From positions 1 to 48,873 of the IMG/VR virus record IMGVR_UViG_3300032731_000731: a stretch of 48,873 bases of DNA. One strand, given 5' to 3'. Position numbers and translations under genes: made by a program. Below are positions 12,655-48,340 of this stretch, piece after piece (the first letter of the stretch is position 1; the number at the start of each line of letters is the position of its first letter). A model generated the notes under the pieces. That model was given only the letters and a program-made list of their open reading frames with translations. It did no database searches and was not told where the DNA came from. This DNA comes from a virus.

Positions 12655-13582
12655 ATGTTAATTTATACTTCATTAAATCTGAAAATGAAGTTTCCTCTGT
12701 ATCATTTATATATTGTATCATTTTCTGAAATCCAATTTCTGATGGATCTCCTTCTTTTAAATTGACAAGATACACTTCAATTCCACTATTTAAAAATTCT
12801 TCAACAATAGTAAGGGAATCTTTCATTGCATCCGTGTCTAATGATACATATATCCGTTTAACATTTTTTTCAAATATTTTTTTCTTTAATTTAGATAAAA
12901 TTGTTTTGCCAAACAATGGAATAACATTACGTTTAATTGCCATTGCATCATAGGGCCCTTCTACTAAAATTATTGGTTCATCCCAATTAATAAATAAATC
13001 AAATCCTATAATATTTTTAGGAAAATCACAATTACGATATGGCATTTTACTTTCATAAAATGATCGGCCTACAAAAAAATTTAACTGCGCATTACCATCA
13101 TATGATGGTATAATAATTCTGTTATTATATTTACCTGATTCACAATATCCTAAATTATATTTTAAAATATCTTTAAAGGTAATATTTCTATGCGTTAAAT
13201 AAGTTATTGCATGATTATATTTTGGCGTTGACTGCTTTACATATAACGGTTGATATTCACGTGGTAAATATAATTGATGTTTAGTTTCAGTATCAGAAAA
13301 TTTCTTGTGTGGACTAAAACCTACTAATGCATTTAATTCATTACACTGAGAACGAGATGCACGTATAACTTTAAATAATTGATGAAATGTTCGGCCTTTG
13401 GCATTACAAACCCAACATTTCCAATAACCATATTGTTTTAATTTGTTGTCCATATTAATTTGTAATTTAGTTTTATAATGATTACAAAATGGGCAAAAAA
13501 ATGAAATTTCTCCAGGCTTTGTAAGGATTTTTCCCCGTCCTAAAATGGTTTCAATTAAATTTAATAATGCTGAATTTATCAT
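12620..13582 (-). CDS. 61: DNA primase, T4 gp61 type
   Basis: The N-terminus has a zinc-binding module with Cys 30, 33, 56 and 59 (CPFC and CWVC). This matches the single-stranded DNA-recognition zinc domain of CHC2-type primases. The middle carries a Toprim domain: EPIILVEGPYDAMAIKRN (about residue 200) and VSLDTDA (about 248), which supply the acidic metal-binding residues. The length of 320 is close to T4 gp61 (342). The enzyme makes RNA primers for lagging-strand synthesis, working with the replicative helicase, which is not in this window. The start overlaps the last 32 bases of the Vsr-like endonuclease gene, and there is no strong ribosome site, so coupled translation is likely. Confidence 0.88.
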   Translation of the reverse strand: MINSALLNLIETILGRGKILTKPGEISFFCPFCNHYKTKLQINMDNKLKQYGYWKCWVCNAKGRTFHQLFKVIRASRSQCNELNALVGFSPHKKFSDTETKHQLYLPREYQPLYVKQSTPKYNHAITYLTHRNITFKDILKYNLGYCESGKYNNRIIIPSYDGNAQLNFFVGRSFYESKMPYRNCDFPKNIIGFDLFINWDEPIILVEGPYDAMAIKRNVIPLFGKTILSKLKKKIFEKNVKRIYVSLDTDAMKDSLTIVEEFLNSGIEVYLVNLKEGDPSEIGFQKMIQYINDTEETSFSDLMKYKLTYGKPKRYMEIL

Positions 13583-14168
13583 TTAAAAACTCGTCATTAG
13601 AAATTCTATAAAATCTACAATCCAAAGCATCAATTATCTTCCGCTGTCTTTTCATATCTTCATCTTTTAAATTTCCATATTTATTATAATGATGATTTTC
13701 ATCCCATTCAATAACCAAATTTAAATTTGGTTCATAATAATCAACTGTATATCTACCTAAACGAACTTCACCACCATTTTTGGCATGATTTCCATTCCAA
13801 TTCATAAACATATTTAACCAATCAAAATATTCACATGCAAGTTCATTAAAATTTGCCCACTGGCCTTTAGGAAGTTTTAATTTTCTAATATTTGATTGTG
13901 TAATACAAAAATCACTACCCATCTTTATTCCCGTTTTAGCAATACTTATATTTTTTTTATGATTATCTGATAATGATCTTCCGTACCAATAATTATTTTT
14001 ACCTTTTTTACATTCCGACCACTGAATCAATTGTTTAGGTGTTAATTTAGAGCCCTTTCTATTTCCACCAGTTTTCTTAAAATGATACATATAACAGTTT
14101 TTACTGCAATATGTTTTATTATTTTTAAGTATATCATTTTTACAAACCAAGCATTTTCTTTTTCTCAT
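13551..14168 (-). CDS. Homing-type endonuclease: zinc finger, NUMOD3, Vsr/DUF559-like domain
   Basis: Residues 6-25 form a small zinc finger (CLVC, then CSKNC). Residues about 58-80 (NNYWYGRSLSDNHKKNISIA) are a NUMOD3 DNA-binding segment. The C-terminal 80 residues have the Vsr-like PD-(D/E)xK layout: YTVDYYEPNLNLVIEWDENHH, then DMKRQRKIIDALDCRFYRIS. This combination is typical of free-standing homing endonucleases of the EDxHD group. The frame begins inside the 49-aa gene upstream, and its last 32 bases overlap the primase start, as if the element had supplied a new leader to the primase. The target site is unknown. Confidence 0.8.
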   Translation of the reverse strand: MRKRKCLVCKNDILKNNKTYCSKNCYMYHFKKTGGNRKGSKLTPKQLIQWSECKKGKNNYWYGRSLSDNHKKNISIAKTGIKMGSDFCITQSNIRKLKLPKGQWANFNELACEYFDWLNMFMNWNGNHAKNGGEVRLGRYTVDYYEPNLNLVIEWDENHHYNKYGNLKDEDMKRQRKIIDALDCRFYRISNDEFLNDKFSIIKFN

Positions 14169-14355: not shown

Positions 14356-14880
14356 TTAACTACGTTTATTATATGGATCAATTTGAAATTCCACAAATAA
14401 TTGATTCAAAGGCTTAGTAAGTTTACCAGATTTTGGAAAAATTGGAAATTTCTTTTTTTGTCCTGATTTAATATAAATCTTTTTAAGAGTATTATAATTA
14501 CGTTTTGATATCTTTCTCTCCTTAGGCTTTTCAGTAGGATGAATTAATAGGTATTTTTCTCTATCTAAATAATCAGCAAGATTTCTTAACAATTCCTGCA
14601 AGGATAACTGTTTTTTATGTAATCCCATTCTCCTAAAGTTTTTAAAAATTTTTCCCTCCCAAGAATTACAGACTTTACACAAAACACCCCTGATTAACCC
14701 AGCCCCATCTTTTATTAGTGGCTGATTTTTAAATAACTTATGTTGATGATCAAGAGTAATATTATCTTTCCCAGCAGTTTCACCACAAATAAGACATTTA
14801 CGATCCTGATGTTCGTATATTTCTTCTCGTTTTTTCTTTATATCTGAGTATTTTAAATATTTAACGTTAGTTTCACCCAT
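14356..14880 (-). CDS. 49: Recombination endonuclease VII (Holliday-junction resolvase)
   Basis: The key T4 gp49 residues are in place: zinc ligands C29 and C32 (CLIC) and C68 and C71 (CKVC), catalytic D44-H45 and H47 in LDHQHK, and N72 right after the last Cys (CNSWEGK). The region after it, a helical dimerisation part ending in LLRNLADYLD, then IHPTEKP and a basic tail, also parallels gp49. Length is 174 against 157 in T4. The enzyme resolves branched DNA before packaging. No clear ribosome site precedes the ATG. The gene follows a 241-base intergenic gap that probably holds its promoter. Confidence 0.9.
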   Translation of the reverse strand: MGETNVKYLKYSDIKKKREEIYEHQDRKCLICGETAGKDNITLDHQHKLFKNQPLIKDGAGLIRGVLCKVCNSWEGKIFKNFRRMGLHKKQLSLQELLRNLADYLDREKYLLIHPTEKPKERKISKRNYNTLKKIYIKSGQKKKFPIFPKSGKLTKPLNQLFVEFQIDPYNKRS

Positions 14881-16127: not shown

Positions 16128-17174
16128 TTATACATCAAATCTAACCACAACACCAAGTTTTAATTCTGGATCATTACGCATCGGTTTAGCTAATTTACCA
16201 ATAACCAGTAATTGGTTTTGATCATTAAACAATCCAACTGTTGTAATATATGGAGCAAAATCAGAATGTGTTACCTCATTAATATATGTACTTGTTGCAT
16301 TATAAGAACTAGAATATGAACCAGTACCATATAATTTAGGATTGTCACCCGGCGGGAAAAATTTATGTACATCAAATGAACCAGGTTTTATAGTTATACT
16401 ACCACTTCTATCATTTGAAACACTAATATTAGTTGTACCATTGAATTCACCAGCATCAACCATACAAACGTATTCATATTCATATATGGTATGTGTTGAT
16501 TTAAAATTAATTGAAAATCCATTTGAACCTGAATTTAATCCTACAGTAGCATATGAACCAGTGTCTGTAATTGTAATTATACCTTGAGAATAAAAGGCAT
16601 TACCAATTACACTTCCACTTTCTGTATCTACTACTAATGAACTTGTATCGGCAAAACTCTCACTTTTATAAGATGCAAAACTTGATGAATAAGCAAAATC
16701 ATATAAATTACCATCTCCATCATCTCGTATATCATAAGTTACGTTGGTTGAATCATCTGTTAACTTGATAGAACCAGGTTTAATGTTTTCACCATAAAAT
16801 TTTTGAGGAACCGTAATTACATTAACCCGGCCATATAAGTTACGCTGCTCTTTTGATGTTTGATTACCACCAAGTGTATATGGTGGTTTATTAAAATCTT
16901 TATAATATAACTTTTTAATACCAAAATAAACTGGTAATTTATAAAATGTTCCTATACTATAAGCTAAATGATTTAAACCATAACTAGCAGACAGTGAATT
17001 ATATGTACCAAAACTCTGAGACGCGGCTGAGCTTGTAAGAAAATTCCACGCACTGCCACTTAATCCTTCAAGCCCGAATACTCCACTAGCACTATCAGCA
17101 CTTGTAAAGGTAAATTCTTTGTAAACTTTGAATGGATTAACTGAACTATCATCTGGATTAAGTGTTTTGTACAT
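16128..17174 (-). CDS. Virion structural protein with ITTVGL(F/Y)ND C-terminal domain
   Basis: A Ser/Thr/Gly-rich, beta-type protein of 348 residues. Its C-terminus (APYITTVGLFNDQNQLLVIG then KLAKPMRNDPELKLGVVVRFD) closely parallels the end of the 340-residue protein two genes upstream (KTYITTVGLYNDNNELLAVA). The two therefore share an attachment or assembly domain. The neighbours are all tail and baseplate genes, so it is probably a baseplate- or tail-attached structural protein. Its first 17 bases overlap the end of a homing endonuclease gene. No catalytic motif is seen. Confidence 0.75.
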   Translation of the reverse strand: MYKTLNPDDSSVNPFKVYKEFTFTSADSASGVFGLEGLSGSAWNFLTSSAASQSFGTYNSLSASYGLNHLAYSIGTFYKLPVYFGIKKLYYKDFNKPPYTLGGNQTSKEQRNLYGRVNVITVPQKFYGENIKPGSIKLTDDSTNVTYDIRDDGDGNLYDFAYSSSFASYKSESFADTSSLVVDTESGSVIGNAFYSQGIITITDTGSYATVGLNSGSNGFSINFKSTHTIYEYEYVCMVDAGEFNGTTNISVSNDRSGSITIKPGSFDVHKFFPPGDNPKLYGTGSYSSSYNATSTYINEVTHSDFAPYITTVGLFNDQNQLLVIGKLAKPMRNDPELKLGVVVRFDV

Positions 17175-17943
17175 TTATTTTCTCTAAAAGTATTTTAGGA
17201 TTTTTCTCTATTTCACTTTGCCAAAACCTATGAATTTCAAACCCATGTTTTTTAGCAAATTCATTTTTGAAAGCATCATTCTGTTTGGTTTCTTCTAATT
17301 TAAAAAATGGAGTATATTTTTTGGCTTTTGGACCCCCATGCCAATAATCTCCATCTATTTCTAATATTATATTTGTTCCTTTAAGTTTAAAATCATACGA
17401 TTTACATATTCCATCCCTATTTAGAAAAAATTGATAATAATATTTTATATTGTGTTTAGTTAATAAATCAGCAACTAATTTTTCCAAATTATTCATTGGT
17501 CGCTTAGACATTATTTTTTTAATAGCTTCTAGTGTATGAGTTTTACCATACATCCCATTGTTTTTGCCCTGTGATAATTTCAATCGTTTTCGTGTATCAC
17601 TCATTTTTTTCTTAGATTCTTCTGAAAATTGAAATCCCAATTTAAAATTACCTTGTTTTTTGCGAATTTTACTTATTTTGGCCTTGGTTTTATCAGAATG
17701 AGGATGGCCATAATGAGGAGATTTTTCTCCAGTCCAAGTTTTCTTTAATTCAGCTAAACATTTTCGTGAACATGTAGTTCCTCCGGTAATTGTTTCACAT
17801 ATCGGACATGGATTATAATTTGGAAAATCATTTAAATTTTGAGCTACATAATTAATAAATTTAATTTTATGTAACATTTTTAAATGATGACTAAATCCTT
17901 TAATACCGATCTTTTTATTACAGTATCTACATTTAATAATCAT
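17158..17943 (-). CDS. Homing-type endonuclease: zinc fingers, NUMOD3 repeats, DUF559/Vsr-like domain
   Basis: The N-terminus has a C2H2-like finger (CRYC..HHLKMLH) and a second Cys cluster (CPIC, CSRKC). Residues about 92-150 hold three NUMOD3 segments (SPHYGHPHSDKTKAKISKIR, FSEESKKKMSDTRKR, NNGMYGKTHTLEAIKK). The C-terminal 110 residues form a PD-(D/E)xK-type nuclease: SYDFKLKGTNIILEIDGDYW, HGG, then a helix and GFEIHRFW. It interrupts the run of structural genes and its end overlaps the start of the next one by 17 bases. This arrangement repeats at other endonuclease genes in the window. Function as a mobile homing nuclease is well supported; its target is unknown. Confidence 0.85.
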   Translation of the reverse strand: MIIKCRYCNKKIGIKGFSHHLKMLHKIKFINYVAQNLNDFPNYNPCPICETITGGTTCSRKCLAELKKTWTGEKSPHYGHPHSDKTKAKISKIRKKQGNFKLGFQFSEESKKKMSDTRKRLKLSQGKNNGMYGKTHTLEAIKKIMSKRPMNNLEKLVADLLTKHNIKYYYQFFLNRDGICKSYDFKLKGTNIILEIDGDYWHGGPKAKKYTPFFKLEETKQNDAFKNEFAKKHGFEIHRFWQSEIEKNPKILLEKINVQNT

Positions 17944-32950: not shown

Positions 32951-33703
32951 TTATTCCTCCTCTTTAAATAAATCCTCAAATGGTTGTTTTGATGATAAAT
33001 TCGGTTTGTCCGGTTCTACTCTTTTTTTAATGGGCTTTGGCTCAACTAACTTTTTTATCCATTGATCACGTTCAAGTCGTGTCGCCATAAAATCTGCCCA
33101 ATGAACTATATATGGTAAACTATGTTTAAGTTGATATTTAGTATCATATTGTTTAAGATATTTTTCATTAGCTAGTTCATATAAACCATCAGCTAATTTT
33201 ATACCTAATGTTTCACTAATTGTAACTTTGATTCCAAAATATTGTAATAACCACAATGAACGATCTGTAATATTCATTAATTGTAATTTTGGATTTATCT
33301 GATATAATTCACCTTTGTTTTTTACATGCCAGTCACTAGTTTGTGGAATATAATAGTCGTGTTCTAAATCGCCTAATTTTCCTAAGTCATGATGTGCACA
33401 TGCAAATACCAATTCTTCAGGTGTATAATTTATATATCCTTCATTTTTTATATATAATTCATGAAGTTGTTCAGCCATATCAATTACATGTAATATATGT
33501 AATACATAACCACCTGGGAATGTATTATGCCAGGCCGATCGCATACTTGCTGGAGCCGTCATCATCCGCGCGCCGAAATGATCATACATTTTATTAATTC
33601 GTGCAGCACGATTTTCCGAAAATGTATCGGTTATTTTATTTTGTAATTTAGTATAATTTTCTAATAATTCATCTGGTGTTAAATCCCTTAAATAGTTACT
33701 CAT
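32951..33703 (-). CDS. HD-domain phosphohydrolase
   Basis: The HD signature is clear: GGYVLHILHVIDMAEQL supplies the first His, ACAHHDLGKLGD the His-Asp pair, and LPYIVHWADFMATRLE a later Asp. Such proteins hydrolyse nucleotides or cyclic and polyphosphorylated nucleotides using a metal pair. The C-terminal 40 residues are Lys/Pro-rich. Its start overlaps the end of the lysozyme-like gene by 8 bases. In a phage the substrate could be dNTPs or signalling nucleotides of host defence; the sequence does not decide. Confidence 0.82.
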   Translation of the reverse strand: MSNYLRDLTPDELLENYTKLQNKITDTFSENRAARINKMYDHFGARMMTAPASMRSAWHNTFPGGYVLHILHVIDMAEQLHELYIKNEGYINYTPEELVFACAHHDLGKLGDLEHDYYIPQTSDWHVKNKGELYQINPKLQLMNITDRSLWLLQYFGIKVTISETLGIKLADGLYELANEKYLKQYDTKYQLKHSLPYIVHWADFMATRLERDQWIKKLVEPKPIKKRVEPDKPNLSSKQPFEDLFKEEE

Positions 33704-34202
33704 TGTCCTCCATATATTTTTTTAATATAATAATTCGGGCTTTAATTTCTCTAGCATAGCTTGGATTTCCAATCCAACCACCATTATACGACGCCCAAAT
33801 TTTCATCCAATTTGCATCTCCATGGATGCCTTCCCAAAATTCTAATTCTGCTATAGATTCAGCGCCTGAAAATTCAATGTCTCCGATTAACATAGACGCA
33901 ACCCTGTTTCTATTAAATGGTGTGTCTTCAATTTCAGGGTGTCGCGACATTACACTGTTGATATGATTATGAAAAACTCCAAATGATGGATCTTGAATAT
34001 TGACTAGCCATTCTCCCGCATTAGATTCTTTCCAGGCAATAGCCGAGAGTGTATAACCAAAATTAAATTCTTTGCCTAATTGATACGAGCGGTCAAGAAT
34101 AATTTTTTGATTAATAGTCATCTTCAAATAATCATTTTCTAATTTAGATGATGGATTAACTATAGCTATAACTATAACAAATATTAATAATAATTTTTTC
34201 AT
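33696..34202 (-). CDS. Secreted lysozyme/transglycosylase-like protein (candidate endolysin)
   Basis: The chosen start is the ATG at 34202. A longer frame reaches back to 34268 but would be translated from within the tmRNA. The new N-terminus MKKLLLIFVIVIAIVNPSS is a signal peptide or signal anchor. The domain that follows has the lysozyme-fold pattern: LSAIAWKESNAGEW (Glu 59 as likely catalytic acid), DPSFGVFHNHI, and WASYNGGW near the end, as in goose-type lysozymes and lytic transglycosylases. It would cut peptidoglycan in the periplasm. It begins only 8 bases after the tmRNA 3' end and has no clear ribosome site. Confidence 0.68.
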   Translation of the reverse strand: MKKLLLIFVIVIAIVNPSSKLENDYLKMTINQKIILDRSYQLGKEFNFGYTLSAIAWKESNAGEWLVNIQDPSFGVFHNHINSVMSRHPEIEDTPFNRNRVASMLIGDIEFSGAESIAELEFWEGIHGDANWMKIWASYNGGWIGNPSYAREIKARIIILKKYMEDNE

Positions 34203-34210
34203 AACTTTAG

Positions 34211-34576
34211 TGGAGATGGGCGGTACTGCCCCGCCGTCCGAATATAATTTGTATAAAAAATCATTCACAAGTTTAGTTAATTTTGCTAAGTTAACGAAGC
34301 ATCAAAATCAACAAAATGCCAACAGCCATCTATTCTTTATTATCGTGCCTCCCGTGTTGCATTGGAACGTCGCTTCTGGATTTTTTAGTGCCACCGCGAT
34401 TGCACATAGCCGATGTATTCGCCTCTATCTCTTATCGGTGTCTGAGTAAAGACGGCTTAGCGATTAAGCGTAAGCGTATTGTACGTTGTTTCCAACTATT
34501 TGTTCTGATTATTTGGTTAATCACTCCCACTTGCATTTTTATCAAATAGCATACCCGTCGAATCTAGTTCATCCCC
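34211..34576 (-). ncRNA. ssrA: Phage-encoded tmRNA (ssrA), 366 nt
   Basis: The 5' end GGGGATG and the 3' end CATCTCC pair over seven bases with a G-U third pair, the tRNA-Ala identity element. The discriminator A follows at 34211. The 5' part contains GATTCGACGGG, the tmRNA hallmark. The 3' part has GGACGGCGG...CCGCC, matching the T-arm region. CCA is not encoded. About 84 nt from the 5' end, AAATAGTT precedes the tag frame, very like E. coli AAATAGTC before its resume codon. The tag frame (34493-34464) starts with GGA and ends at TAA. tmRNA releases stalled ribosomes and tags nascent peptides for proteolysis. No smpB gene is in the window, so the host protein is presumably used. Confidence 0.93.
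34464..34493 (-). other. tmRNA tag reading frame, encoding GNNVQYAYA
   Basis: Nine codons and TAA inside the tmRNA. The alignment with the E. coli frame is codon for codon in its first half: GCA AAC GAC there, GGA AAC AAC here. The tag ends in YAYA rather than the usual YALAA. A Gly resume codon is known for Bacteroidota tmRNAs (from memory, tags of the GExNYALAA kind). The altered end could change recognition by ClpXP-type proteases. Confidence 0.85.
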
Positions 34577-34718
34577 ATGTTTCGTCCTCCGATGGTTCAA
34601 TGGCCAAAAGAAGTCTTTCTAATAATTCCTTAGCTTCCATTATTAAATTCCAATCTTTTGTTTCAATTCCAGCTGTTAGTACTTCTAACAACATAATTAA
34701 ATCTGTTTCTTCCGGCAC
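34569..34718 (-). CDS. Small acidic protein, 49 aa, GTG start
   Basis: A GTG at 34718 with AGGAG seven bases upstream is the best start; the nearby ATG in another frame stops after 20 codons. The protein is leucine-rich and acidic (TDLIMLLEVLTAGIETKD, then IMEAKELLERLLLAIEPSED), probably two helices. Its stop codon overlaps the first eight bases of the tmRNA, so the two are probably co-transcribed. Function unknown. Confidence 0.6.
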   Translation of the reverse strand: MPEETDLIMLLEVLTAGIETKDWNLIMEAKELLERLLLAIEPSEDETWG

Positions 34719-35005: not shown

Positions 35006-35392
35006 TTATTTTCCATAGCAATATTTACAATTTCCCTTATGAGTTATTCCACCGTTATCTCCCATAGATACGTATTCACATCCTTCGATTTCAAATACAT
35101 AAACTTTTACTCCTAAATTATAATATCGCAACTTTGCTTTTTCACAATTTTTTTCAGTTTGAATTTGTTGTGCAGTTTTAGATGAAACTTTTTTTCCAGC
35201 CAAGATTTTTCCAGAGTTTCCCACTAATCCGGTACCGGCCAATATAGAAACCTTTTCATTTTTAGGATGATCTGCTGTCTTCGCTGCTCGTTGATTTAAA
35301 GAATTAAATTTTGGTATAGCTATAGCTATGATCATAATTATAACAATGACCATCATTACTTCTATTATAGTAAATCCGTTATTTTTATTCAT
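35006..35392 (-). CDS. Prepilin-like protein with class III signal and phage C-terminal domain
   Basis: The N-terminus is a textbook type IV prepilin/pseudopilin signal: short basic leader MNKNNG, then FTIIEVMMVIVIIMIIAI with Glu at +5 after the Gly-Phe cleavage point. A prepilin peptidase of the host could cut and methylate it. The rest is not pilin-like. It ends in GCEYVSMGDNGGITHKGNCK, a Cys-rich ending that I recall from short phage proteins with the HKGNC motif. It is thus a chimera of a membrane-targeting pilin helix and a phage domain. It starts 8 bases inside the end of the NADAR-like frame. It might interfere with host pili or act at the membrane. Confidence 0.72.
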   Translation of the reverse strand: MNKNNGFTIIEVMMVIVIIMIIAIAIPKFNSLNQRAAKTADHPKNEKVSILAGTGLVGNSGKILAGKKVSSKTAQQIQTEKNCEKAKLRYYNLGVKVYVFEIEGCEYVSMGDNGGITHKGNCKYCYGK

Positions 35393-37670: not shown

Positions 37671-38180
37671 TTACATATCCCTCGCGCCATCTAATTCAAA
37701 CATACTTTCAATTCGCGCAGTTAAATTCATTTCTTCAGTATTATCTTTTGGGGTAAGAATTAAATCGTGCATATCCCAACCGTAGTCATGTGTACCAATT
37801 TCTTCAGCTGGATTTTCCTCTGCATATTTATAAAATTCCGCTTTTAATTCATTATGTTTAGTTTTATACTTTGGATCATCCCAATATGAATGTTCATGGC
37901 CATTTTCACCTTGATAATATCGCTCAAAATTAGTTTCATCTATCCATGCATCTATTTTTTCATCCACCCATATATCTAAGCATGCACTATTAGGAACAAC
38001 TTTAAATTCAAAAAGATCATCAGCAGTTTTATCTGACTTCGCCATTTCCAAAAAAGCATTAATCAAATCTTTAGCGTATTGAATTGTATTATCATGAACC
38101 TGAACAAAAATGGTTGTAGACGAATTTGTAATTACATCCACAAAACTATGTATTGGTATTCTAATTATTTTACCCATCAT
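37671..38180 (-). CDS. ITNSST-family protein A, 169 aa
   Basis: One of four tandem paralogues. Residues 8-24 read IPIHSFVDVITNSSTTIF, and residues about 45-57 SDKTADDLFEF. The middle is longer and more acidic than in the other three. The end (LILTPKDNTEEMNLTARIES) matches the C-terminal block of its relatives. AGGAGG precedes the first ATG. The next gene downstream is the radical SAM enzyme. The family is not one I can name; its role as a modified substrate is inferred. Confidence 0.75.
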   Translation of the reverse strand: MMGKIIRIPIHSFVDVITNSSTTIFVQVHDNTIQYAKDLINAFLEMAKSDKTADDLFEFKVVPNSACLDIWVDEKIDAWIDETNFERYYQGENGHEHSYWDDPKYKTKHNELKAEFYKYAEENPAEEIGTHDYGWDMHDLILTPKDNTEEMNLTARIESMFELDGARDM

Positions 38181-38499
38181 AATGTGCCTCCTGACTAAAT
38201 ATATTCTGTAATTTATTTAATAAATTTAGTGGTTTTTCAGAATCACCTTTTGATGTAATTTTTAAAGTATTTTCTGCTGACATACAATTCCAATCATTAG
38301 GATCATGCTCCTCATCTTCTATTATTTCAAATTCAAAAAGATCATCAGCAGTTTTATCTGAACCGGCGGCATCTAAAATCTCATTAATTAAATCTTTGGC
38401 ATATTCTATTGATTTACTATGAGTATTAGTATATATTTCAGTAGATGAATTTGTAATTACATCTATTATACTGTGTATAGGTATTGCTATTTGTTTCAT
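38170..38499 (-). CDS. ITNSST-family protein B, 109 aa
   Basis: The ATG at 38499 is chosen because AAAGGAG precedes it and the product then begins MKQIAIPIHSIIDVITNSST, matching its three relatives; the longer frame to 38556 would add an unrelated leader. It keeps SDKTADDLFEF and a short C-terminal block (LKITSKGDSEKPLNL). It overlaps paralogue A by 11 bases. Shortest member of the set. Confidence 0.75.
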   Translation of the reverse strand: MKQIAIPIHSIIDVITNSSTEIYTNTHSKSIEYAKDLINEILDAAGSDKTADDLFEFEIIEDEEHDPNDWNCMSAENTLKITSKGDSEKPLNLLNKLQNIFSQEAHYDG

Positions 38500-38509
38500 T
38501 TTTTCTCCT

Positions 38510-38929
38510 TTATCCATAAATTTCTTCAGAACTGAAAACTTTATTCCATTCTTCAATAAAATCTATTGGTGCTTCTTTTCCATCTTTTGGTGTTAATAAA
38601 ATAGATATATCTCCATAAACATCTTCAACCTCATCAATGTTAAAATCAGAATCATTAATATCTTTATAATATTGTGCTTCTGCTTCTTTTTCACTAGCTT
38701 CTGGATTTACGTCACACATAAAATCATCCATCCAAACTTCTTTATATGATTCTGGTGGAATCAATTTAAATTCAAACAACTCATCTGCCGATTTATCTGA
38801 GCCACTGGCTTTTAACAATTTATCAACTAAATCCTTCATGGCTCCAATTGCATTTTTTTGAGGCCGCACATATATTTCAGTTGAAGAATTTGTAATTACA
38901 TCTATAAAACTGTGTATTGATACTTTCAT
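38510..38929 (-). CDS. ITNSST-family protein C, 139 aa
   Basis: Begins MKVSIHSFIDVITNSSTEIY and has SDKSADELFEF at about residue 45. An acidic middle (EASEKEAEAQYYKDINDSDF) leads to the conserved end ILLTPKDGKEAPIDFIEEW. The start overlaps the stop of paralogue D by four bases. Same proposed role as A. Confidence 0.75.
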   Translation of the reverse strand: MKVSIHSFIDVITNSSTEIYVRPQKNAIGAMKDLVDKLLKASGSDKSADELFEFKLIPPESYKEVWMDDFMCDVNPEASEKEAEAQYYKDINDSDFNIDEVEDVYGDISILLTPKDGKEAPIDFIEEWNKVFSSEEIYG

Positions 38930-39303
38930 CGTTCTCCTTCAAATACATCAAATATTCGTTCAAATGTGGTTGCTAAATCAATATTATCATTTCCACTTTT
39001 TGGTGTTATTACTAGATTTTTAATTAAGTAAGTTTCACCAACCATATTGTATTCTTCATTATACTCATCTTCATCATACTCATATTCTTTCATAATATTG
39101 TCTTTATTATAGTAATCATCATCTTTAAAAGAAAATTCATATAAATCATCTGCTGTTTTATCTGAACCAGATTCTTTAAGAATTGTATTAATTAAATCCT
39201 TGGCATACTGAATTGTATTATTTGTTACGTTTACAAAAATTTCAGTAGATGAATTTGTAATTACATCTATAAAACTATGTACTGGTATTATTATTTGTTT
39301 CAT
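38926..39303 (-). CDS. ITNSST-family protein D, 125 aa
   Basis: Begins MKQIIIPVHSFIDVITNSST, with SDKTADDLYEF further on and LVITPKSGNDNIDLATTFER near the end. The middle is very acidic (EYEYDEDEYNEEYN). It is the first of the four in transcription order, with AAAAGGAG before its ATG and a zinc-ribbon gene upstream. Same proposed role as A. Confidence 0.75.
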   Translation of the reverse strand: MKQIIIPVHSFIDVITNSSTEIFVNVTNNTIQYAKDLINTILKESGSDKTADDLYEFSFKDDDYYNKDNIMKEYEYDEDEYNEEYNMVGETYLIKNLVITPKSGNDNIDLATTFERIFDVFEGER

Positions 39304-39586: not shown

Positions 39587-40660
39587 TTACCAAGTCCCAT
39601 CTATAATATTAACAAAATTTTCACGAATCAAAAATGCGCCGTCTTTATTAATAAGTTTATTAATTCTTTTAACATCTGGTTTGTCTAGTTTATTCCAGTC
39701 ATCAATACCACCATCTTTATGATAATCCATGATGGTATCTCGAATAAATAATGCCAGTAATTTACCAAACTCTTTTTGTTTAACCTCACCAAATTTTGAA
39801 ATTACATTATGTAAACGATTTTCTGATAAATATGCAGATACGTCCTCATATACCAATTGTGCTTGCCTTTGTAATGGTTCTGAAGGCGCTTTCGGTTTTT
39901 TAGTCTGGTTATGTTCCGACCATTTATTATTCTTATTTTTAAAAATAACTCGTGAACCACTTTTTAATATCACCGGTTGAACTGGCCGAAGAACAACACC
40001 TTCCATAATATTAATATTATCTTCACCGTTTTTGTTTTTACCCATCATTCCAGCTTTAAGTTCTGGAAGATCAAATTCTTTATAAATTTGACTTAATCCA
40101 TCATTTGGAAATTTAAGTGCTTCTGATAATGTACCATGGAATAATTCTTTTGCGTAAAGAAATCCCAAATGGTCAAATAAATTATTTGCAAAATTAAGAT
40201 GTAAATATTCACCATTTACTGTAATATCAAATACATAAAAATGATTATCCGGTGAGTAATAAATTCCACTCTGAACAGATTTCGCAGTTAAATTTTTAGT
40301 AATATCAGGGTGAGGATAATTTCCGCCCATTATTTCACCATATACTACAATTTCGAGTGTTGTGGTATCCCAATCTCCTTTGGTAGACATAATATAATTG
40401 TAAAGTGTAATAATTCGTTCTCGATTATCTTCTAAAACTTTTACATAATTATAGAAGTTTTCACCAGTTCCACGTGTATCAAGAAAACTGGAACGCTTAC
40501 CAGCTTTCATTATTTCTCCATCATACCAAATAGAGAAATTTGCACCGTGCACCTTTTCAGATACCGACCAGTCCCCACCACCATAACCTTCGGACAAAAT
40601 AAAGTCCATAGTTTTTTGTCGATGGGTTCCTTCTATGTCATTGAATCGTTTAAATTGCAT
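39587..40660 (-). CDS. RNA ligase, Rnl2 type
   Basis: The nucleotidyltransferase motif I is SEKVHGANFSI with Lys 36 as the adenylylated residue. Motif III is near VYGEIMGG. Motif IV is NIMEGVVLRP and motif V is SRVIFKNKNNKW. The order and spacing fit T4 Rnl2 (334 residues). The C-terminal 100 residues form the helical domain of the family. It joins nicked RNA using ATP, as in tRNA repair after host cleavage of tRNA. The promoter at 40705-40733 and three repeats lie just upstream. Confidence 0.88.
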   Translation of the reverse strand: MQFKRFNDIEGTHRQKTMDFILSEGYGGGDWSVSEKVHGANFSIWYDGEIMKAGKRSSFLDTRGTGENFYNYVKVLEDNRERIITLYNYIMSTKGDWDTTTLEIVVYGEIMGGNYPHPDITKNLTAKSVQSGIYYSPDNHFYVFDITVNGEYLHLNFANNLFDHLGFLYAKELFHGTLSEALKFPNDGLSQIYKEFDLPELKAGMMGKNKNGEDNINIMEGVVLRPVQPVILKSGSRVIFKNKNNKWSEHNQTKKPKAPSEPLQRQAQLVYEDVSAYLSENRLHNVISKFGEVKQKEFGKLLALFIRDTIMDYHKDGGIDDWNKLDKPDVKRINKLINKDGAFLIRENFVNIIDGTW

Positions 40661-41385: not shown

Positions 41386-42254
41386 TGTTTTCTCATTTCT
41401 TCAATATCTTCATATATTACTTGTTGACCACATAATATGCAGCGGTCTATTTCTTGTAAAATAAAAGTGTTTATATCTCGTCCAACAAGCAACAATCCGA
41501 CATTACAAGCTGGGCATATGCGTTTCCAATACCCAGCTTCCCATTCTTTTAATTCTGAATGTTTTACTGTTATTGGAGGCTTATTTATATTAATTATAAC
41601 CAATTCTTCTCTATTCAAGTTATCCTGTTCCATTACCGTCAAATTTTTTGCTATACAACTTCTTGATATATGGTCTATACCGTGTTGAAGTGTCACAATG
41701 CCCTCCCGTAAACTATCAATTCCTGCATCAAAAGAATCTAGTAAATCTTCAAGTTCTCTTTTTAATTCATAAATCTCATCATTTGTTAATCGTTTACGCT
41801 TAGGATTAATCCATGCTTTTGATGGGCGCGGGTAATCAATTTGTAAAAACGTTAAAATTTCAGACCATTCCGCCATTTCAAATCCAGCTTTATCCTCTAA
41901 AAACACATCGTAATATGGTTTATCTTCATAATATCCAAAATCTTCAAATGATCTAATTTCAGGATTTTCATTAACATAATCAAATTTAATACCATATCGT
42001 TTTAATTGATTTAAATACTTAGCAACCTGATCAGGATACGAAGATGTAAATAATATTAATCTAATATCCTTTCTGATAGTCATTAATTGAAGTGCTTTTT
42101 TGGCGTAGTCCGGAAACTCAATATCTGGAGCATCGATTTGATAATTGGGTGTTGTAATTACTCCATGCATATCAATCGCCCAATAAGATTCATACCAATG
42201 ATTTTTAATATGTTTTTGGAATTGTTTTTTTAGTAAATTATATATTGAACCCAT
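41382..42254 (-). CDS. HAD-like protein with C-terminal zinc ribbon
   Basis: Residues 24-33 (YWAIDMHGVI) and about 95-103 (LILFTSSYPD) match HAD motifs I and II; VFLEDKAGF (about 146) could be motif IV. Motif I has DxH where the family has DxD, so the general acid Asp is missing and the activity is uncertain. A helical linker (LTNDEIYELKRELEDLLDSF) leads to a zinc ribbon (CPACN and CILCG) at the C-terminus. It overlaps the Nudix gene. It may act on nucleotides or nucleic-acid ends, or be an inactive scaffold. Confidence 0.65.
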   Translation of the reverse strand: MGSIYNLLKKQFQKHIKNHWYESYWAIDMHGVITTPNYQIDAPDIEFPDYAKKALQLMTIRKDIRLILFTSSYPDQVAKYLNQLKRYGIKFDYVNENPEIRSFEDFGYYEDKPYYDVFLEDKAGFEMAEWSEILTFLQIDYPRPSKAWINPKRKRLTNDEIYELKRELEDLLDSFDAGIDSLREGIVTLQHGIDHISRSCIAKNLTVMEQDNLNREELVIININKPPITVKHSELKEWEAGYWKRICPACNVGLLLVGRDINTFILQEIDRCILCGQQVIYEDIEEMRKQ

Positions 42255-42780
42255 TATTTATCTCCATTCCTAAATAAAAACTTAATACCTTAGCGCCGAT
42301 ATCAGTTCCTTTTAATCGTTCGGTATCAATTAATGATTTTAATTTTGATAAGTCTACAGTTATATTTTCAATTTGCTCCGTAAGTTCTCGATTCGGCTTC
42401 CGATCATATTCAACTAGAGCAGTAACTTGAGCTACCTTTTCATTTGATAATCCTTCGCTACTTACTGATGGCGGTTCTGCATGTAAAATTTCTGTGATTG
42501 TATAACCAGTTTCCTCTTGTAATTCTCGATACGCAGTTTCTATATAATTTTCACCTTCATCAACCATTCCAGCTGGAAATTCTAATACCCAATTGTTGAT
42601 CGGCCGACGAAATTGCCTTATAAGTAATATTTTATACATTGTATCAGTAAATTTAATTATGGGAATTATATTAACCGCGCCTCTTTTGGATATACGTTCT
42701 ACAAATTCCCATTCACGATCATCATCCGTAATTACACTGAATTGTAAAAAATTACCTTTATGAATTACTTTTTTACTCAT
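42238..42780 (-). CDS. Nudix hydrolase, ADP-ribose pyrophosphatase-like
   Basis: The complete Nudix box is present: G, five residues, E, seven residues, RELQEETGY (about residues 77-99 of the longer frame). The upstream context (IRQFRRPINNWVLEFPAGMV) is typical of ADP-ribose and NAD-related pyrophosphatases. The ATG at 42780 with GGA before it is the best start; the frame is open to 42810. Its neighbours make or use NAD, so it may recycle ADP-ribose or clear NAD breakdown products. Confidence 0.85.
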   Translation of the reverse strand: MSKKVIHKGNFLQFSVITDDDREWEFVERISKRGAVNIIPIIKFTDTMYKILLIRQFRRPINNWVLEFPAGMVDEGENYIETAYRELQEETGYTITEILHAEPPSVSSEGLSNEKVAQVTALVEYDRKPNRELTEQIENITVDLSKLKSLIDTERLKGTDIGAKVLSFYLGMEINNGFNI

Positions 42781-43084
42781 CATTTTCCATTTTATATTTA
42801 AGTGTACCAATTAATTTTCCAACATTAGCTTTATTACGTCTAACAAAATATCCACTTGGAAATAATTCTTTTAATAATCGTGATAGTGCATATGGATGTT
42901 TTAGCGTGAATTTTCTCCCACACCATTTTCGCGTTTGATTAAGCCCCCAATCTTTATATCCAATTAACCAAATTGCACGAATCCCAGCATCAACTATATT
43001 AGATTCAAGTATGTCACGATGTTTTTTTTCCCACTTTAGTTGATATTTCGCAACAAATAAACTACGTTTTGTAGGTGATATCAT
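42773..43084 (-). CDS. Hypothetical protein, 103 aa
   Basis: A basic protein with IVDAGIRAIWLIGYKDWGLN and KWCGRKFTLKHPYALSRLLK. No family recognised. It overlaps NadE by four bases and the Nudix gene by eight, so it is part of the same translational unit. It could bind nucleic acid, given its charge. Confidence 0.62.
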   Translation of the reverse strand: MISPTKRSLFVAKYQLKWEKKHRDILESNIVDAGIRAIWLIGYKDWGLNQTRKWCGRKFTLKHPYALSRLLKELFPSGYFVRRNKANVGKLIGTLKYKMENDE

Positions 43085-43845
43085 TTTTCCTTTTTATATG
43101 ATGGTGGCATCTTTTGTTTATGTATTGATCCAAGTAGACGCGATGCCAACTTAAATTCTTTTTCATTACGCCAATATGGAATGCCTATATTCCGCCAGAT
43201 TAAAAAGTCATCAATTTCTTCATAACTCATACCCAATTCCTCTTCATCTGTCTTACTGATTCCGAGTCCAGCATTAGGAGATTTCCTTATAATTTTTTTA
43301 GGAATTCTTAATTCTTCGGCCATTTCCCAAATTTCTGTTTTATAATAATCCGCGATAGGTTCAAAATCAATTCCACCATCACCATATTTAGTGAAAAAAC
43401 CAATCATCATTTCAGTTTTATTGGTAGTTCCCATTACGTAACCATCGTATTGATTAGCAAACATATAAAGTGCAACCATCCGAAGTCGAGATTTTAAATT
43501 ACCTTTGGTTAAATTTGTTAATGGTGCATCTTTTTCAAAATCATCCTCTATTAACATAAAATCATATGTATCCATCACACTTACAAATATATCATCAAGT
43601 GGAAATTGTATAACATCAATTCCTGGAAATTGTGACATTACCAAATAAGCGTCTTTAGCATCTTCTGGATCAGAAATACACGGCAGAACTACAGCAGTAA
43701 CTTTATCTACACCAACTGCTTTAACACTTAATGCAAGAACAACTGCAGAGTCAATTCCTCCACTTACACCAAGTATAATTCGTTTGTCTCCAACCTTATC
43801 TTTAATCCAGCTTGAAATGTTTTCTATATCTTTTGTGTATTTCAT
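43081..43845 (-). CDS. nadE: NAD synthetase (ammonia-dependent)
   Basis: The PP-loop SGGIDS is at residues 28-33. MGTTNKTEMMIGFFTKYGDG and DFEPIADYYKTEIWEMAEEL are characteristic of NadE, as is IRKSPNAGL for binding the deamido-NAD substrate. Length 254 fits the ammonia-type enzyme. It converts nicotinate adenine dinucleotide to NAD with ATP. It is the last step of the Preiss-Handler route. PncB of the same route is two genes beyond the NAD-consuming ligase. Confidence 0.92.
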   Translation of the reverse strand: MKYTKDIENISSWIKDKVGDKRIILGVSGGIDSAVVLALSVKAVGVDKVTAVVLPCISDPEDAKDAYLVMSQFPGIDVIQFPLDDIFVSVMDTYDFMLIEDDFEKDAPLTNLTKGNLKSRLRMVALYMFANQYDGYVMGTTNKTEMMIGFFTKYGDGGIDFEPIADYYKTEIWEMAEELRIPKKIIRKSPNAGLGISKTDEEELGMSYEEIDDFLIWRNIGIPYWRNEKEFKLASRLLGSIHKQKMPPSYKKEK

Positions 43846-43848
43846 TTT

Positions 43849-44205
43849 TTACTTTCGTGTCCCAATGGATAACGAATCTCCATCAATAAACACATAATCT
43901 CCAACAATAGTCCAAACATGTGCATATAATTCCAATTTTCTGGTTTTGCGTTCTCCTGCATCATTGAATCCAGTTATTTCAATACACCAATCTTCGTCAT
44001 CATGTATCATTTGAGATTGCATCGTCGTTATTTTACCAATCGTGATTGGCACCATCATTACATTATTAGTTTCTTCTTCATACCATTTATGAATTACTTC
44101 ACCTTCTGAAATAGCTGGTGTGCAACTTACTAACAAAGTTATAATTATTCCAACGAGTATCCCAATCACAAAAGACGAACCAGAATGATCATTATGTTTA
44201 GGCAT
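43849..44205 (-). CDS. Putative lipoprotein, 118 aa
   Basis: A hydrophobic segment (SFVIGILVGIIITL) is followed by LVSC with Cys 28, fitting a type II signal peptide lipobox. The mature part is a small beta-type domain (VWTIVGDYVFIDGDSL). The N-terminus is longer and less basic than usual, so a simple membrane anchor is the alternative. It lies between ligase and NadE. A role in surface exclusion is possible but unsupported. Confidence 0.6.
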   Translation of the reverse strand: MPKHNDHSGSSFVIGILVGIIITLLVSCTPAISEGEVIHKWYEEETNNVMMVPITIGKITTMQSQMIHDDEDWCIEITGFNDAGERKTRKLELYAHVWTIVGDYVFIDGDSLSIGTRK

Positions 44206-46146
44206 TTATTCCCCTATCATATTAAAGAAATTTTCTTCACTAAGAATTTCAACACCAAAGTTAAGTGCTTTCTTAGTTTTAGTACTTTGACTTGACGGAT
44301 CAGCTTGTACCAAATATGTCAATCCTTTTTTCACACTTGATACATCACCACCATTTTTGATGACTACTGCTTCCATCATTTTACGGGTGAATCGTTTTCC
44401 ATCATCACCAACTTTTTGAATTGCACCAGTAAAACAAAAACTCTTATCCATTAACCGACCTTCCATATCATCCATTTTTAACTCCTTTTTAATAGTAACA
44501 CCATTTATTAATAATGCGTATCCTAATTTCTTTTTCTTATTTATTTCAAAAACAAAATCTATTGCTCTTGATTCACCAAATCCATCTATTTTTATAATAT
44601 CAGTTGAATGTAAATCTAATAATTGACCAAATGTTTCATATTTTTTGGCATCAATTATTCGTTGAACTAAAGATGAACCAAAATGTCCAAGATTTAATCC
44701 ACCAACAAAATCGGCGAGTGATATTTCTTTATGAGCTTGAATAATATTAACCATTTTTGTAGCTGAACGAATTTGAAATCCACCCATATCTAAAAAATCT
44801 TCAACTTCTAATGTGTATAAGTGATCCGGTGAATTTATCAATTTATTATCAACAAGACGCTCAACAGTTGCATTACCTATACCTTTACCTGCCATTCCAG
44901 ATTTTTCAATCCACTTCATAATTCCACCAATGATGGCTCCACGACAATTTTCATTTTCACATCGTAAGAATTTATCATCTACAACTAACCGTGAATTACA
45001 TTCTGGACAATTTGAGGGATAATTGAATGAACGATTACCATTATCTTTACGAGAAATTGATTCCACATGCGGAATTACATCTCCTCGGCGCGATACAATT
45101 ACTTCATCATAAAGACACAATTTCAATTCATTAAATATATTGAGATTAGCAAGGCTAGCACGACTAACAGTAACTCCACCCATATTTACAGGCTCCAATA
45201 CTGCAACTGGAGTAAGTGTTCCACTTTTACCAAGCGACCAATCAATATCTTCAATAATTGTTTTTGCTTTTAAACTAATGAATTTGAATGCTCTGGCGAA
45301 CTTGGGATTTCCGTGTTTATCGTAACCTAACTGTTTACGCGAAGTGAAATCATTTAATTCTAATACGAGACCATCGATTTCGTAATTAAGTTCTGCTCTG
45401 CGTTCTGATTCATAATATTCATACATTTTTAAAATAGAATTTTTGTCGGGCATGCATCTCCAATTTGGTGTATCAAAACTATTATTTTCTAACCAACTCA
45501 TTTGAAGAAATTTATCCATTTCAAGGCTGGTATCGTAACATTTAATTGTCAAATATCCACAATAAATACCTTCACGATCACGAGCTTTTCCGCTCGCCCC
45601 ATTTCTTGGATTTTTAAGTGGATCATCTCCACGCAATTTCTGTAATTCTACAATTGAATTAAAATCGTTTTCAAGTAAAATGATTTCACCACGAACTGAT
45701 ACACTCATTTTTGTATTTAATTTTTTAGGAAATCCTTTCATTTTCGATACATTAACTGTAATATCTTCTCCAACAATACCATCACCACGGGTAATACCAC
45801 GAACAAGATTTCCATCTTCATATTCTAATGAAATAGAAATACCATCCAATTTTTCGCTAATTACGATAGTTTCGCCCTTTAATGTTGAATACCATTTCAA
45901 AAATTCATCTTCATCTGTAACTTTATCCAATGAACCCATTGGAATATGATGATTTGCTTTCTCCCACGCTGATGCTCTTGAAATCGGTGATCCAATAGTT
46001 GATTTCAATTCTTCATCTTCATAATCTTCAAAATATAATTTTTGTAGTTCATCAAATATATGATCTGGAACAAGTGACACATTATCATTATAATATGAAT
46101 CACTGTATTTGATTAATTCTGCTCTACGTTCCACTTGGGTCATCAT
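44206..46146 (-). CDS. ligA: NAD-dependent DNA ligase
   Basis: Nucleotidyltransferase motif SEKLDGIS with Lys 99 as the adenylylated residue. RGDGIVGEDITVN and RGEIILLENDF follow in order, then NPRNGASGKARD. A four-Cys zinc finger is at about residues 405-430 (CPEC, CENENC), then helix-hairpin-helix repeats and a BRCT domain (about 560-640). The N-terminal Ia domain that binds NMN is present. Length 646 is near the bacterial norm (about 670). It seals nicks with NAD instead of ATP. T4 uses an ATP ligase, so this is a departure from the T4 model. Confidence 0.93.
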   Translation of the reverse strand: MMTQVERRAELIKYSDSYYNDNVSLVPDHIFDELQKLYFEDYEDEELKSTIGSPISRASAWEKANHHIPMGSLDKVTDEDEFLKWYSTLKGETIVISEKLDGISISLEYEDGNLVRGITRGDGIVGEDITVNVSKMKGFPKKLNTKMSVSVRGEIILLENDFNSIVELQKLRGDDPLKNPRNGASGKARDREGIYCGYLTIKCYDTSLEMDKFLQMSWLENNSFDTPNWRCMPDKNSILKMYEYYESERRAELNYEIDGLVLELNDFTSRKQLGYDKHGNPKFARAFKFISLKAKTIIEDIDWSLGKSGTLTPVAVLEPVNMGGVTVSRASLANLNIFNELKLCLYDEVIVSRRGDVIPHVESISRKDNGNRSFNYPSNCPECNSRLVVDDKFLRCENENCRGAIIGGIMKWIEKSGMAGKGIGNATVERLVDNKLINSPDHLYTLEVEDFLDMGGFQIRSATKMVNIIQAHKEISLADFVGGLNLGHFGSSLVQRIIDAKKYETFGQLLDLHSTDIIKIDGFGESRAIDFVFEINKKKKLGYALLINGVTIKKELKMDDMEGRLMDKSFCFTGAIQKVGDDGKRFTRKMMEAVVIKNGGDVSSVKKGLTYLVQADPSSQSTKTKKALNFGVEILSEENFFNMIGE

Positions 46147-46388
46147 TTGGATTCCCTTTCCATTTTTGCTATAATTTTTCGTAATTCACAAATAATCTGT
46201 TCCAAAACCTCAGTCCTATATGATTCCATCCATATAAAAAGTGCTGATATCCAAAATCCCATTGTTATTCCACCAAATAAACCATTAGCAAGAGCTACAT
46301 CTTCAGGAGTTGATGCCACCGGAATAATCATATATCTAAGCAATAAAAATAATGTACCAATTAAAAATACCATTGTATGTAATTTCAT
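46143..46388 (-). CDS. Two-pass membrane protein, 81 aa
   Basis: Two hydrophobic segments at about residues 6-24 and 35-54 (FLIGTLFLLLRYMIIPV, then LFGGITMGFWISALFI) and a charged C-terminal helix. It overlaps the ligase start by four bases. A small inner-membrane protein of unknown function. Confidence 0.62.
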   Translation of the reverse strand: MKLHTMVFLIGTLFLLLRYMIIPVASTPEDVALANGLFGGITMGFWISALFIWMESYRTEVLEQIICELRKIIAKMERESK

Positions 46389-46406
46389 AATACCTTTTTA
46401 CCTAAA

Positions 46407-46490
46407 TCAGTTAGCTGGACTAAATTTAGAATAAAACTCATAGTGTGAAACCAAAAGTAAATCTCTTTTCTGTGCGGCAGTCAATTTCAT
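46407..46490 (-). CDS. Possible 27-aa peptide, leaderless
   Basis: ATG to TGA encodes MKLTAAQKRDLLLVSHYEFY then SKFSPAN. There is no ribosome site, and the predicted transcription start of the promoter above falls at or near the ATG. It could be a leaderless peptide or simply leader RNA. Confidence 0.3.
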   Translation of the reverse strand: MKLTAAQKRDLLLVSHYEFYSKFSPAN

Positions 46491-46496
46491 CTATTG

Positions 46497-46525
46497 AATT
46501 TACAAAATTTTATGTTAAGTGTCAA
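46497..46525 (-). promoter_or_regulatory. Sigma-70-like promoter, TTGACA-17-TAAATT
   Basis: Minus strand TTGACA (46525-46520), a 17-base spacer, TAAATT (46502-46497). It lies just after the stop of PncB and would drive the membrane protein, ligase and NadE genes. Both hexamers and the spacing equal those of the RNA ligase promoter. Confidence 0.62.
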
Positions 46526-46526
46526 G

Positions 46527-47753
46527 TTAAACCCTTAATACGTTCTTAGCTAAATCAATCATTCTAGAATCACCGGTATGTTTACCAACATCATCTGAAA
46601 GTTTAATTGCTGAAACCCAATTATTATTTACTAAAACGTGGGTCATTTTAATAACAATATTGAGTGGCTTTACTCCAACATCATTTGATAAATATGTTCC
46701 TATGCCAAATGAACATTTAATTTCATCAATGCAAAATCTATAAATTTCAGTTGCTTTTTTAAGATTAAGTCCATCTGAAAAAATAATAGTTTTACTACGT
46801 GGATCGATTCCTTTTGATTTATAATGACTTACTGTTTTTTCAATAAAATCAAACGGATCTCCACTATCATGCCGAACACCATCAAATAATTTTGAGAGTT
46901 TAGTATTAAAATTAGAATAAAAATCATCTGTAGTAAATGTATCAGTTAATGCAATTCCTAAATCACCTTGATACACGCTTGCCCAATTTTCAAGAGCCAT
47001 TTCATTGGCTAATTTAAATCCATATTTTGCCGCATGAAACATAAACCATTCATGCGCATGAGTACCGATCGGTTTAATTCCATGAATTCGTGCTAAATGA
47101 ACATTGCTGGTTCCTACAAAAAATGAATCACCACCAATCTTACTAAGGTAATATGTTTCTAATTCCTGATACATATATGAATATCGCCTACGTGTTCCAA
47201 ATTCTGCTAAATATGCCCCTAGTTTGGCAAACCCACCAATTTTCTTTAATAGTGGTTCTAAAACATCAGGATTGATTACATTATGATCACTCCATACAGA
47301 TGATTTATTATTCTTAACGATATCAGTTTGTGAAGTAAATAATTCAACAATTTGACCAGTTTCCTTAAAGTATAATTCACTTATCATTGCAAGTAATGGA
47401 ACTTCCCACAAAATAGTTCTATACCAATATCCTTCTACAATAACTTTTAAAGTACCGCCAGTTTGTTTAATAGTAACTTCTGCAGGATCATATTTATATC
47501 CACGTAAAAAGTCTATATAGACTGGATCAAAATAATAACAATTACCATGCAAAAAATCTACTTCCAATTCAGTTAAATAATGTTGTGTCATTAATTCAAC
47601 CTCATTACGTAATTTCTTTGCAAATCCTTTTGAAAATATTGTAGTTCCTCGATTTATAAATTCAAAACGAACCACTTCCCGTGGAAATAATTTACACACC
47701 GCGGATTGCATAGAAAATTTATACAAATCATTATCTAGTATGGATACTATCAT
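46527..47753 (-). CDS. pncB: Nicotinate phosphoribosyltransferase
   Basis: Motifs match bacterial PncB throughout: LDNDLYKFSMQ at the N-terminus, ILWEVPLLAMISELYFK, EFGTRRRYS, FFVGTSN, GTHAHEWFMFHAAKYG with His 234 as the likely phosphorylated residue, GIALTDTFTTD, RHDSGDP and SFGIGTYL. Length 408 against 400 in E. coli. It converts nicotinate to nicotinate mononucleotide, the first step of the Preiss-Handler route. A nicotinamide enzyme (NAMPT/NadV) was considered but this fits PncB better. Confidence 0.9.
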   Translation of the reverse strand: MIVSILDNDLYKFSMQSAVCKLFPREVVRFEFINRGTTIFSKGFAKKLRNEVELMTQHYLTELEVDFLHGNCYYFDPVYIDFLRGYKYDPAEVTIKQTGGTLKVIVEGYWYRTILWEVPLLAMISELYFKETGQIVELFTSQTDIVKNNKSSVWSDHNVINPDVLEPLLKKIGGFAKLGAYLAEFGTRRRYSYMYQELETYYLSKIGGDSFFVGTSNVHLARIHGIKPIGTHAHEWFMFHAAKYGFKLANEMALENWASVYQGDLGIALTDTFTTDDFYSNFNTKLSKLFDGVRHDSGDPFDFIEKTVSHYKSKGIDPRSKTIIFSDGLNLKKATEIYRFCIDEIKCSFGIGTYLSNDVGVKPLNIVIKMTHVLVNNNWVSAIKLSDDVGKHTGDSRMIDLAKNVLRV

Positions 47754-48340
47754 TTTATTCTCCTCAACATGTCTGTATCTGTCGGGAAGATATCATAATA
47801 ATCCATATCTTCAAAGCATGTATTATGTTTTCCATTATCAGTTTTCTCATTCCAAATTTCTTTAGCAACTTCTTTACTACATGGATCACATATATCCACC
47901 CATATATTATCAAATCTATCATAAAGTCTAACAATATACAATTGAAATTCAGTTTTAATTTTAGCTTTAGCTTCTTGCACAACCGCATACAGTTCCGCAA
48001 AGTCTTCAAATGTTAATTGCAATCCACCGTTCATTGATATAAAAATATTTTTACCCATGGTGCTCAAATTATCAGATTCCCGCCGGTAATGTTTATAATT
48101 AAATCCATCATTACCAACAATAATTAAAAGATTAGCACCGGAAAATGTTTTACGAAGTTCAACTTGAGCACTTTTTCCGTCCCGGTGTTTAATAAATTTC
48201 CCTTTCCAGGATGTTTGATCCTTTTCATCCATATTAGGAACAAAAGTACCTGGTATTCCACTATCAGATACATGCATATCATTATGGTTTTTTGTAGAAC
48301 GTAATTTTTTAGGTTTATTCCAATTAATTAAGTTTTTCAA
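47750..48340 (-). CDS. Hypothetical protein, 196 aa
   Basis: No family recognised. The first 60 residues are polar and disordered-looking, the rest is mixed alpha/beta (VELRKTFSGANLLIIVGNDG, NIFISMNGGLQLTFEDFAEL). It overlaps PncB and the gene to its right by four bases each, so it belongs to the same operon. Confidence 0.62.
   Translation of the reverse strand: MKNLINWNKPKKLRSTKNHNDMHVSDSGIPGTFVPNMDEKDQTSWKGKFIKHRDGKSAQVELRKTFSGANLLIIVGNDGFNYKHYRRESDNLSTMGKNIFISMNGGLQLTFEDFAELYAVVQEAKAKIKTEFQLYIVRLYDRFDNIWVDICDPCSKEVAKEIWNEKTDNGKHNTCFEDMDYYDIFPTDTDMLRRIK

Follow-up and report, generated by a model that had tools for sequence, protein, structure and literature searches.

Phage tmRNAs are well known: one survey counted tmRNA genes in 402 of 18,146 phage genomes (PMC9004378), and such genes occur in mycobacteriophages such as Bxz1 and Wildcat and in Bacillus phage G (PMC4131195), and are accompanied by SmpB in some huge phages (PMC7162821), so the presence of a tmRNA alone is not new. 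The commonest tag length in a database of 97,179 tmRNA sequences is 10 residues (PMC11915505). The window, i.e. the whole stretch of 48,873 bases analysed here, is a record (G000) of an uncultured virus of bacteria whose baseplate and tail genes are T4-like; the baseplate wedge was identified through homologues so annotated in cultured phages.

Identification of the tmRNA gene

Positions 34208–34576 of the window, on the minus strand, were identified as a complete one-piece tmRNA (ssrA) gene of 369 nt, using the Rfam RF00023 covariance model, which matched over its full length (model positions 1–374) with a score of 90.1 bits, above the gathering score of 47, and an E value of 8.5e-34. An earlier sequence-only reading, which named no strand, had placed a tmRNA at 34211–34576; the locus was right, its start lying 3 nt inside the RF00023 match, which also takes in the ACTA 3′ end. 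The two programs recommended in that reading gave different results: the covariance model accepted the region, and ARAGORN, run on the 48,873-nt window, reported no tmRNA gene. Among Rfam families the tmRNA alone was matched in the window, and no riboswitch was found. BLASTN of the gene against phage records returned short matches at or beyond the 3′ end alone, which were judged to be chance. GGGG...TTCGAC lies upstream of the tag and of the CTCCA end on the same strand, which is the one-piece order; a permuted two-piece form was ruled out, as the 3′ half does not precede the 5′ half in the gene. The earlier observation is confirmed: the gene is a real tmRNA.

Structure of the RNA

The 369-nt RNA starts with GGGGATGAACTAGATTCGACGGG and finishes with CATCTCCACTA. 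Unguided minimum-energy folding of all 369 nt gave a 7-bp acceptor stem, a 5-bp T-arm and a P2 helix of 27 pairs. In both the fold and the Rfam alignment the acceptor stem is formed by the 5′ strand GGGGATG (34570–34576) and the 3′ strand CATCTCC (34212–34218; all features of the RNA are on the minus strand), with 7 pairs, the third being G-U; this is the alanine identity pair G3-U70 (AlaRS), and it had been recognised beforehand together with the GATTCGACGGG element, which was likewise found in the RNA. In the fold, the T-arm (34219–34235, GGCGG/CCGCC) closes a non-canonical 7-nt loop, GGCAGTA, and the arms of P2 lie at 34529–34557 (5′) and 34239–34272 (3′). Pseudoknot 1 (34506–34529) was read from the sequence as the interleaved pairings UGG/CCA and UGAUUA/UAAUCA, at the place to which the Rfam alignment assigns PK1. 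The PK2–PK4 region was aligned by Rfam with low posterior probability; the window's own class has too few members for covariation. The 3′ end, ACTA (34208–34211), supplies the discriminator A and encodes no CCA, and relatives carry ACAA or ACCA at this place; since CCA is not always encoded in tmRNA genes (PMC11915505), the ACTA end is not disqualifying.

The T-loop was sought in a genome collection using the pattern GGAC-stem-GGCAGTA-stem-CTCCAC. Matches were obtained mainly in alphaproteobacterial genomes, many of them SAR11, with a few in Saccharibacteria, Marinimicrobia and others, and in many viral contigs. GGCAGTA is the loop of the alphaproteobacterial two-piece tmRNA acceptor pieces and, being common in alphaproteobacteria, is natural rather than a phage invention. 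A simple motif search found no canonical TTCGAC upstream of the scan loci, one locus (L394) excepted, in whose record the RF00023 match lies below the family cut-off; the result is in keeping with the permuted two-piece form known from alphaproteobacteria. Full one-piece RF00023 matches were present in some Saccharibacteria and one other genome of the scan set, and the genome scan returned no one-piece match to the window tmRNA, in which the GGCAGTA T-loop is joined with the one-piece order.

Tag of the window tmRNA

The tag frame (34464–34493) was established by translation and by its position, which fits the Rfam model and the tags of relatives. Its codons, GGA AAC AAC GTA CAA TAC GCT TAC GCT TAA, give GNNVQYAYA and a stop, the same tag that had been proposed from the sequence alone, including its end in YAYA and not ALAA. 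The Gly first codon, which had been pointed out there, is present and not strange in itself, as it is common to nearly all relatives here. By sequence and fold, the frame begins 12 nt past the 3′ strand of pseudoknot 1, and the P5 hairpin (34455–34475), which also appears in the Rfam alignment, carries the stop codon in its loop. Because the P5 helix and the YAYA codons overlap, these codons may be conserved in part through a constraint on the RNA. Neither a genome scan for GNxVQYA tags nor a scan of viral sequences for near copies of the window tag returned a match. Syntenic tmRNAs of related phages also carry the AYA end, which is therefore regarded as a feature of the lineage, not an accident. 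The ssrA tag of Mesoplasma florum ends in YAFA.

Genome context

Upstream of the tmRNA, on the same strand, translation gave a small ORF of 49 aa (34569–34718) with a GTG start preceded by AGGAG and a stop codon inside the 5′ end of the tmRNA. The next gene (33696–34202, minus strand), which has a signal-peptide-like N-terminus and no Pfam match, has its ATG 5 nt past the tmRNA 3′ end, and is followed by an HD-hydrolase-like protein (32951–33703, minus strand), also without Pfam match, homologues of which lie downstream of the tmRNA in relatives where sought; it serves as the anchor of the gene order common to relatives. The position of its homologue in a Flavobacterium phage is annotated as phosphohydrolase. 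No smpB was found in the window (a genome fragment), as the sequence-only reading had also noted. None was detected either in 20 other phage records, among them the huge phage LR756508.1, by a search that was positive in 10 control bacteria. A Shine–Dalgarno-like motif precedes 24 of 45 window genes, which is not decisive for the host. An assignment via the cultured relatives, phages of Microcystis or Flavobacterium, was discarded, given identities of just 38–48% and no recognisable tmRNA in them; no host is claimed.

Elsewhere in the window, a small protein (35006–35392) carries PF07963, a prokaryotic N-terminal methylation (prepilin-like) motif that is unusual for a phage, and four tandem small paralogues (37671–39303) have IPxHSxxDVITNSSTE near the N-terminus in common. 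A T4 RNA ligase 2-like protein (39587–40660; PF09414, PF18043) might repair cut RNAs. The region 42238–48340 forms an NAD cluster with NAPRTase (46527–47753), NAD synthase (43081–43845), NUDIX (42238–42810) and a protein that reads like a putative NAD-dependent DNA ligase (44206–46146); NAD+ rebuilding during infection is possible. Putative homing endonucleases (GIY-YIG, HNH or similar) are located among structural genes at 1154–2083, 13551–14168, 14356–14880 and 17158–17943.

Distribution in related phages

With the gp6-like baseplate protein as query, 80 viral contigs were retrieved at 56–61% identity, and RF00023 scored above cut-off in 6 of 50 records searched. Mapping of the window proteins showed that six relatives likewise have a tmRNA upstream of the HD-hydrolase-like and sigma-like genes and the tail block, on the same strand. 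Its distance to the HD gene is 0.5 kb in the window, 2.3 kb in G051, 2.4 kb in both G064 and G066, 6.3 kb in G106 and 7.8 kb in G126; in LR756508.1 it lies 7.4 kb upstream of the sigma-like gene. The arrangement is old, as the flanking proteins are just 30–66% identical. The tmRNAs of the relatives share about 40–53% identity, yet structure and frame are kept.

Some related phages carry the same anchor genes but no recognisable tmRNA, namely 17 contigs retrieved by the HD protein (39–44% identical) and the cultured relatives that infect Microcystis and Flavobacterium. The tmRNA is therefore not essential across the wider group. The contigs of the closest gp6 relatives (G039 and G042, probably also G046) stop short of the expected tmRNA place, and absence from G039 and G042 is therefore no evidence. 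Many relatives are fragments, and the short-tag class has one close comparator (L467, in G126). Its tag, GNYNTQVAYA (10 residues), is the nearest to that of the window, and its T-loop is likewise GGCAGTA.

Two further arrangements were observed. Near-identical viral contigs (G022/G029; L123, L124, L140, L141) have two adjacent tmRNA-like matches each, the second of 41 bits, below cut-off, with a frame ending in NANDNAYAMAA. The huge phage LR756508.1 (L503, L505) holds a full tmRNA at 92434–92880 and, at 414804–414915, a 112-nt tRNA-domain-only tmRNA-like RNA resembling the DS6A type. The tag frame of its full tmRNA, GVNNADYESAGFTAEDFAQMDGESLYHGSERKPAAV (36 aa, start read by eye), is at the expected place and has a different end, RKPAAV.

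Long tags in a presumed marine branch

In one branch, 17 distinct tags of 36–40 residues were found, with the pattern SL[DE]GLxIDWHLA...YAYA(A), for example GDTSLDGLDIDWHLANLEMGFDNFVEPVQNDQPSYAYAA; the branch is called marine from a reading of the origin of gp6 relatives that is based on contig names, not sample descriptions. The tmRNAs concerned are syntenic or closely similar (L149–L154, L157–L167, L405–L419). The 17 distinct tags end in YAYAA (12), YAYA (4) or YAYTA (1), next to QYAYA in the window and QVAYA in its nearest comparator, and the AYA(A) end spans two tag-length classes. A tblastn search of phage records with a long tag gave only matches with E about 1 or worse.

On 15 long-tag loci, ARAGORN missed 6 and assigned shorter tags of 11–22 residues to the other 9. 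This shorter reading was rejected on three grounds. As in the window, the first Gly (or Asp) codon of the long frame lies about 12 nt past pseudoknot 1; the long tags differ by indels that preserve the frame; and the 12-codon N-terminal core, upstream of the ARAGORN starts, gives a pN/pS of 0.20 when read in the tag frame, compared with 1.10 and 0.84 for the other two. Over the whole long tag the values are 0.59 against 1.09 and 1.16; as the pairs are not independent, these ratios are contrasts, not P values. Core Leu, Ile and Ala codons change synonymously. The N-terminal core of the long tags is under protein-level purifying selection. The first codons form a short hairpin (GGCGA/UCGCU; GACGAA/UUCGUU in L149), which may constrain the bases encoding 'GD.SL'.

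Proposed function and alternatives

Taken as a whole, the data are best explained by a working tmRNA that has long been part of this T4-like myophage lineage, a reading to which we assign a probability of about 0.7. In favour of it are the RF00023 match, the unguided fold, G3-U70, the failure to find SmpB in the records searched, the synteny, the AYA ends and the kept frame; the ARAGORN rejection, the low posterior probability of the central pseudoknots and the relatives without tmRNA count against it. The RNA most likely rescues stalled ribosomes in infection with the aid of host SmpB and marks the products for a host protease. The tmRNA would be co-transcribed with its minus-strand neighbours and have both ends trimmed, after which host enzymes (CCA-adding enzyme, AlaRS) would add CCA and charge it with alanine. 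Host SmpB and EF-Tu would then deliver it to ribosomes that have stalled on mRNA that is broken or lacks a stop codon, the ribosome would move to the tag frame, add Ala-GNNVQYAYA and be released at TAA, and the tagged fragment would be destroyed via its C-terminal AYA by a host protease accepting ...AYA, the choice of protease being a guess. The phage would thereby gain ribosomes, and possibly amino acids, while messages are being degraded. The analysis gave no support to the suggestions of the sequence-only reading that the tmRNA could redirect products away from ClpXP, alter their half-life or make up for defence nucleases.

A further proposal, which is offered tentatively, concerns the tag as an evolving functional peptide. 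The 36–40-residue tags, with their selected SLxGLxIDWHLA core, could provide a docking segment before the AYA(A) end for a phage or host adaptor or protease, and the 9 residues of the window could be a short form of the same system.

Three alternatives to a working rescue tmRNA were weighed. The one that survives best, although it is improbable, holds that host ClpXP recognises an AYA end poorly and that rescued fragments are consequently spared or sent to another protease, e.g. Lon. The tag does end in AYA and not LAA, the end recurs in relatives, and altered tags of the Mesoplasma (mycoplasma) type, which belong to Lon rather than ClpXP (PMC8138137), provide a precedent; however, the window tag may simply copy the host's own tag, and the P5 pairing over the YAYA codons may place part of the constraint on the RNA. 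Considerably weaker, and in our view very unlikely, is a decoy that binds SmpB and blocks host trans-translation, as proposed for the tRNA-domain-only RNA of phage DS6A (PMC4131195, PMC11915505). The tRNA-domain-only match that LR756508.1 carries besides its full tmRNA would fit such a role, but the tag frame of the window RNA is complete, with its stop codon and P5 hairpin, and in relatives selection acts on the tag as protein, which a decoy would not need; the intact and selected frame makes this role less likely. Recent capture of a host gene without function in the phage is already hard to hold: phages often acquire fragments of ssrA, which is an integration site (PMC9004378), and the T-loop resembles that of alphaproteobacterial tmRNAs, but alphaproteobacterial genes are generally permuted two-piece (PMC9004378), unlike that of the window, where no integrase was seen and where only 5 nt separate the tmRNA gene from the start codon that follows; the same place and orientation of the tmRNA in six diverged relatives make a recent neutral capture unlikely.

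Comparison with known systems

What is new is a syntenic tmRNA family with AYA(A) ends and, within it, a branch of selected 36–40-residue tags; a literature search, thin on subscription papers, returned no description of either. Phage tmRNAs and their tags are probably under-reported, because they are usually counted with ARAGORN, which fails on the window gene and misses or shortens the long tags. Tags of 9, 10 and 36–40 residues at one syntenic place form a natural series in which to study the roles of a tag beyond ClpXP marking, and protein-level selection on the conserved core opens to test the question of whether phages direct rescued products to a chosen protease or partner.

Compared with the standard one-piece tmRNA (RF00023), the window RNA is alike in gene order, G-U third pair, GATTCGACGGG, P2, PK1, tag frame and a P5 with the stop codon in its loop, and differs in the GGCAGTA T-loop, the ACTA end, the AYA tag end and the low posterior probability of PK2–PK4. 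With the tmRNAs of Bxz1, Wildcat, phage G and huge phages it shares the setting of a full tmRNA in a tailed-phage genome; its phage lineage and its tag family are different ones, and the records searched here yielded no smpB, whereas some huge phages carry it (PMC7162821). The permuted two-piece tmRNA of the marine phage Melnitz and SAR11 phages (PMC9004378) is also a phage tmRNA, and GGCAGTA is found in alphaproteobacterial acceptor pieces, but the window gene is not permuted and no riboswitch accompanies it. Compared by tag sequence alone, the window tag has the aromatic-Ala C-terminal pattern of the Mesoplasma florum tag in place of LAA, and differs from it in its 9 residues and unrelated upstream part.
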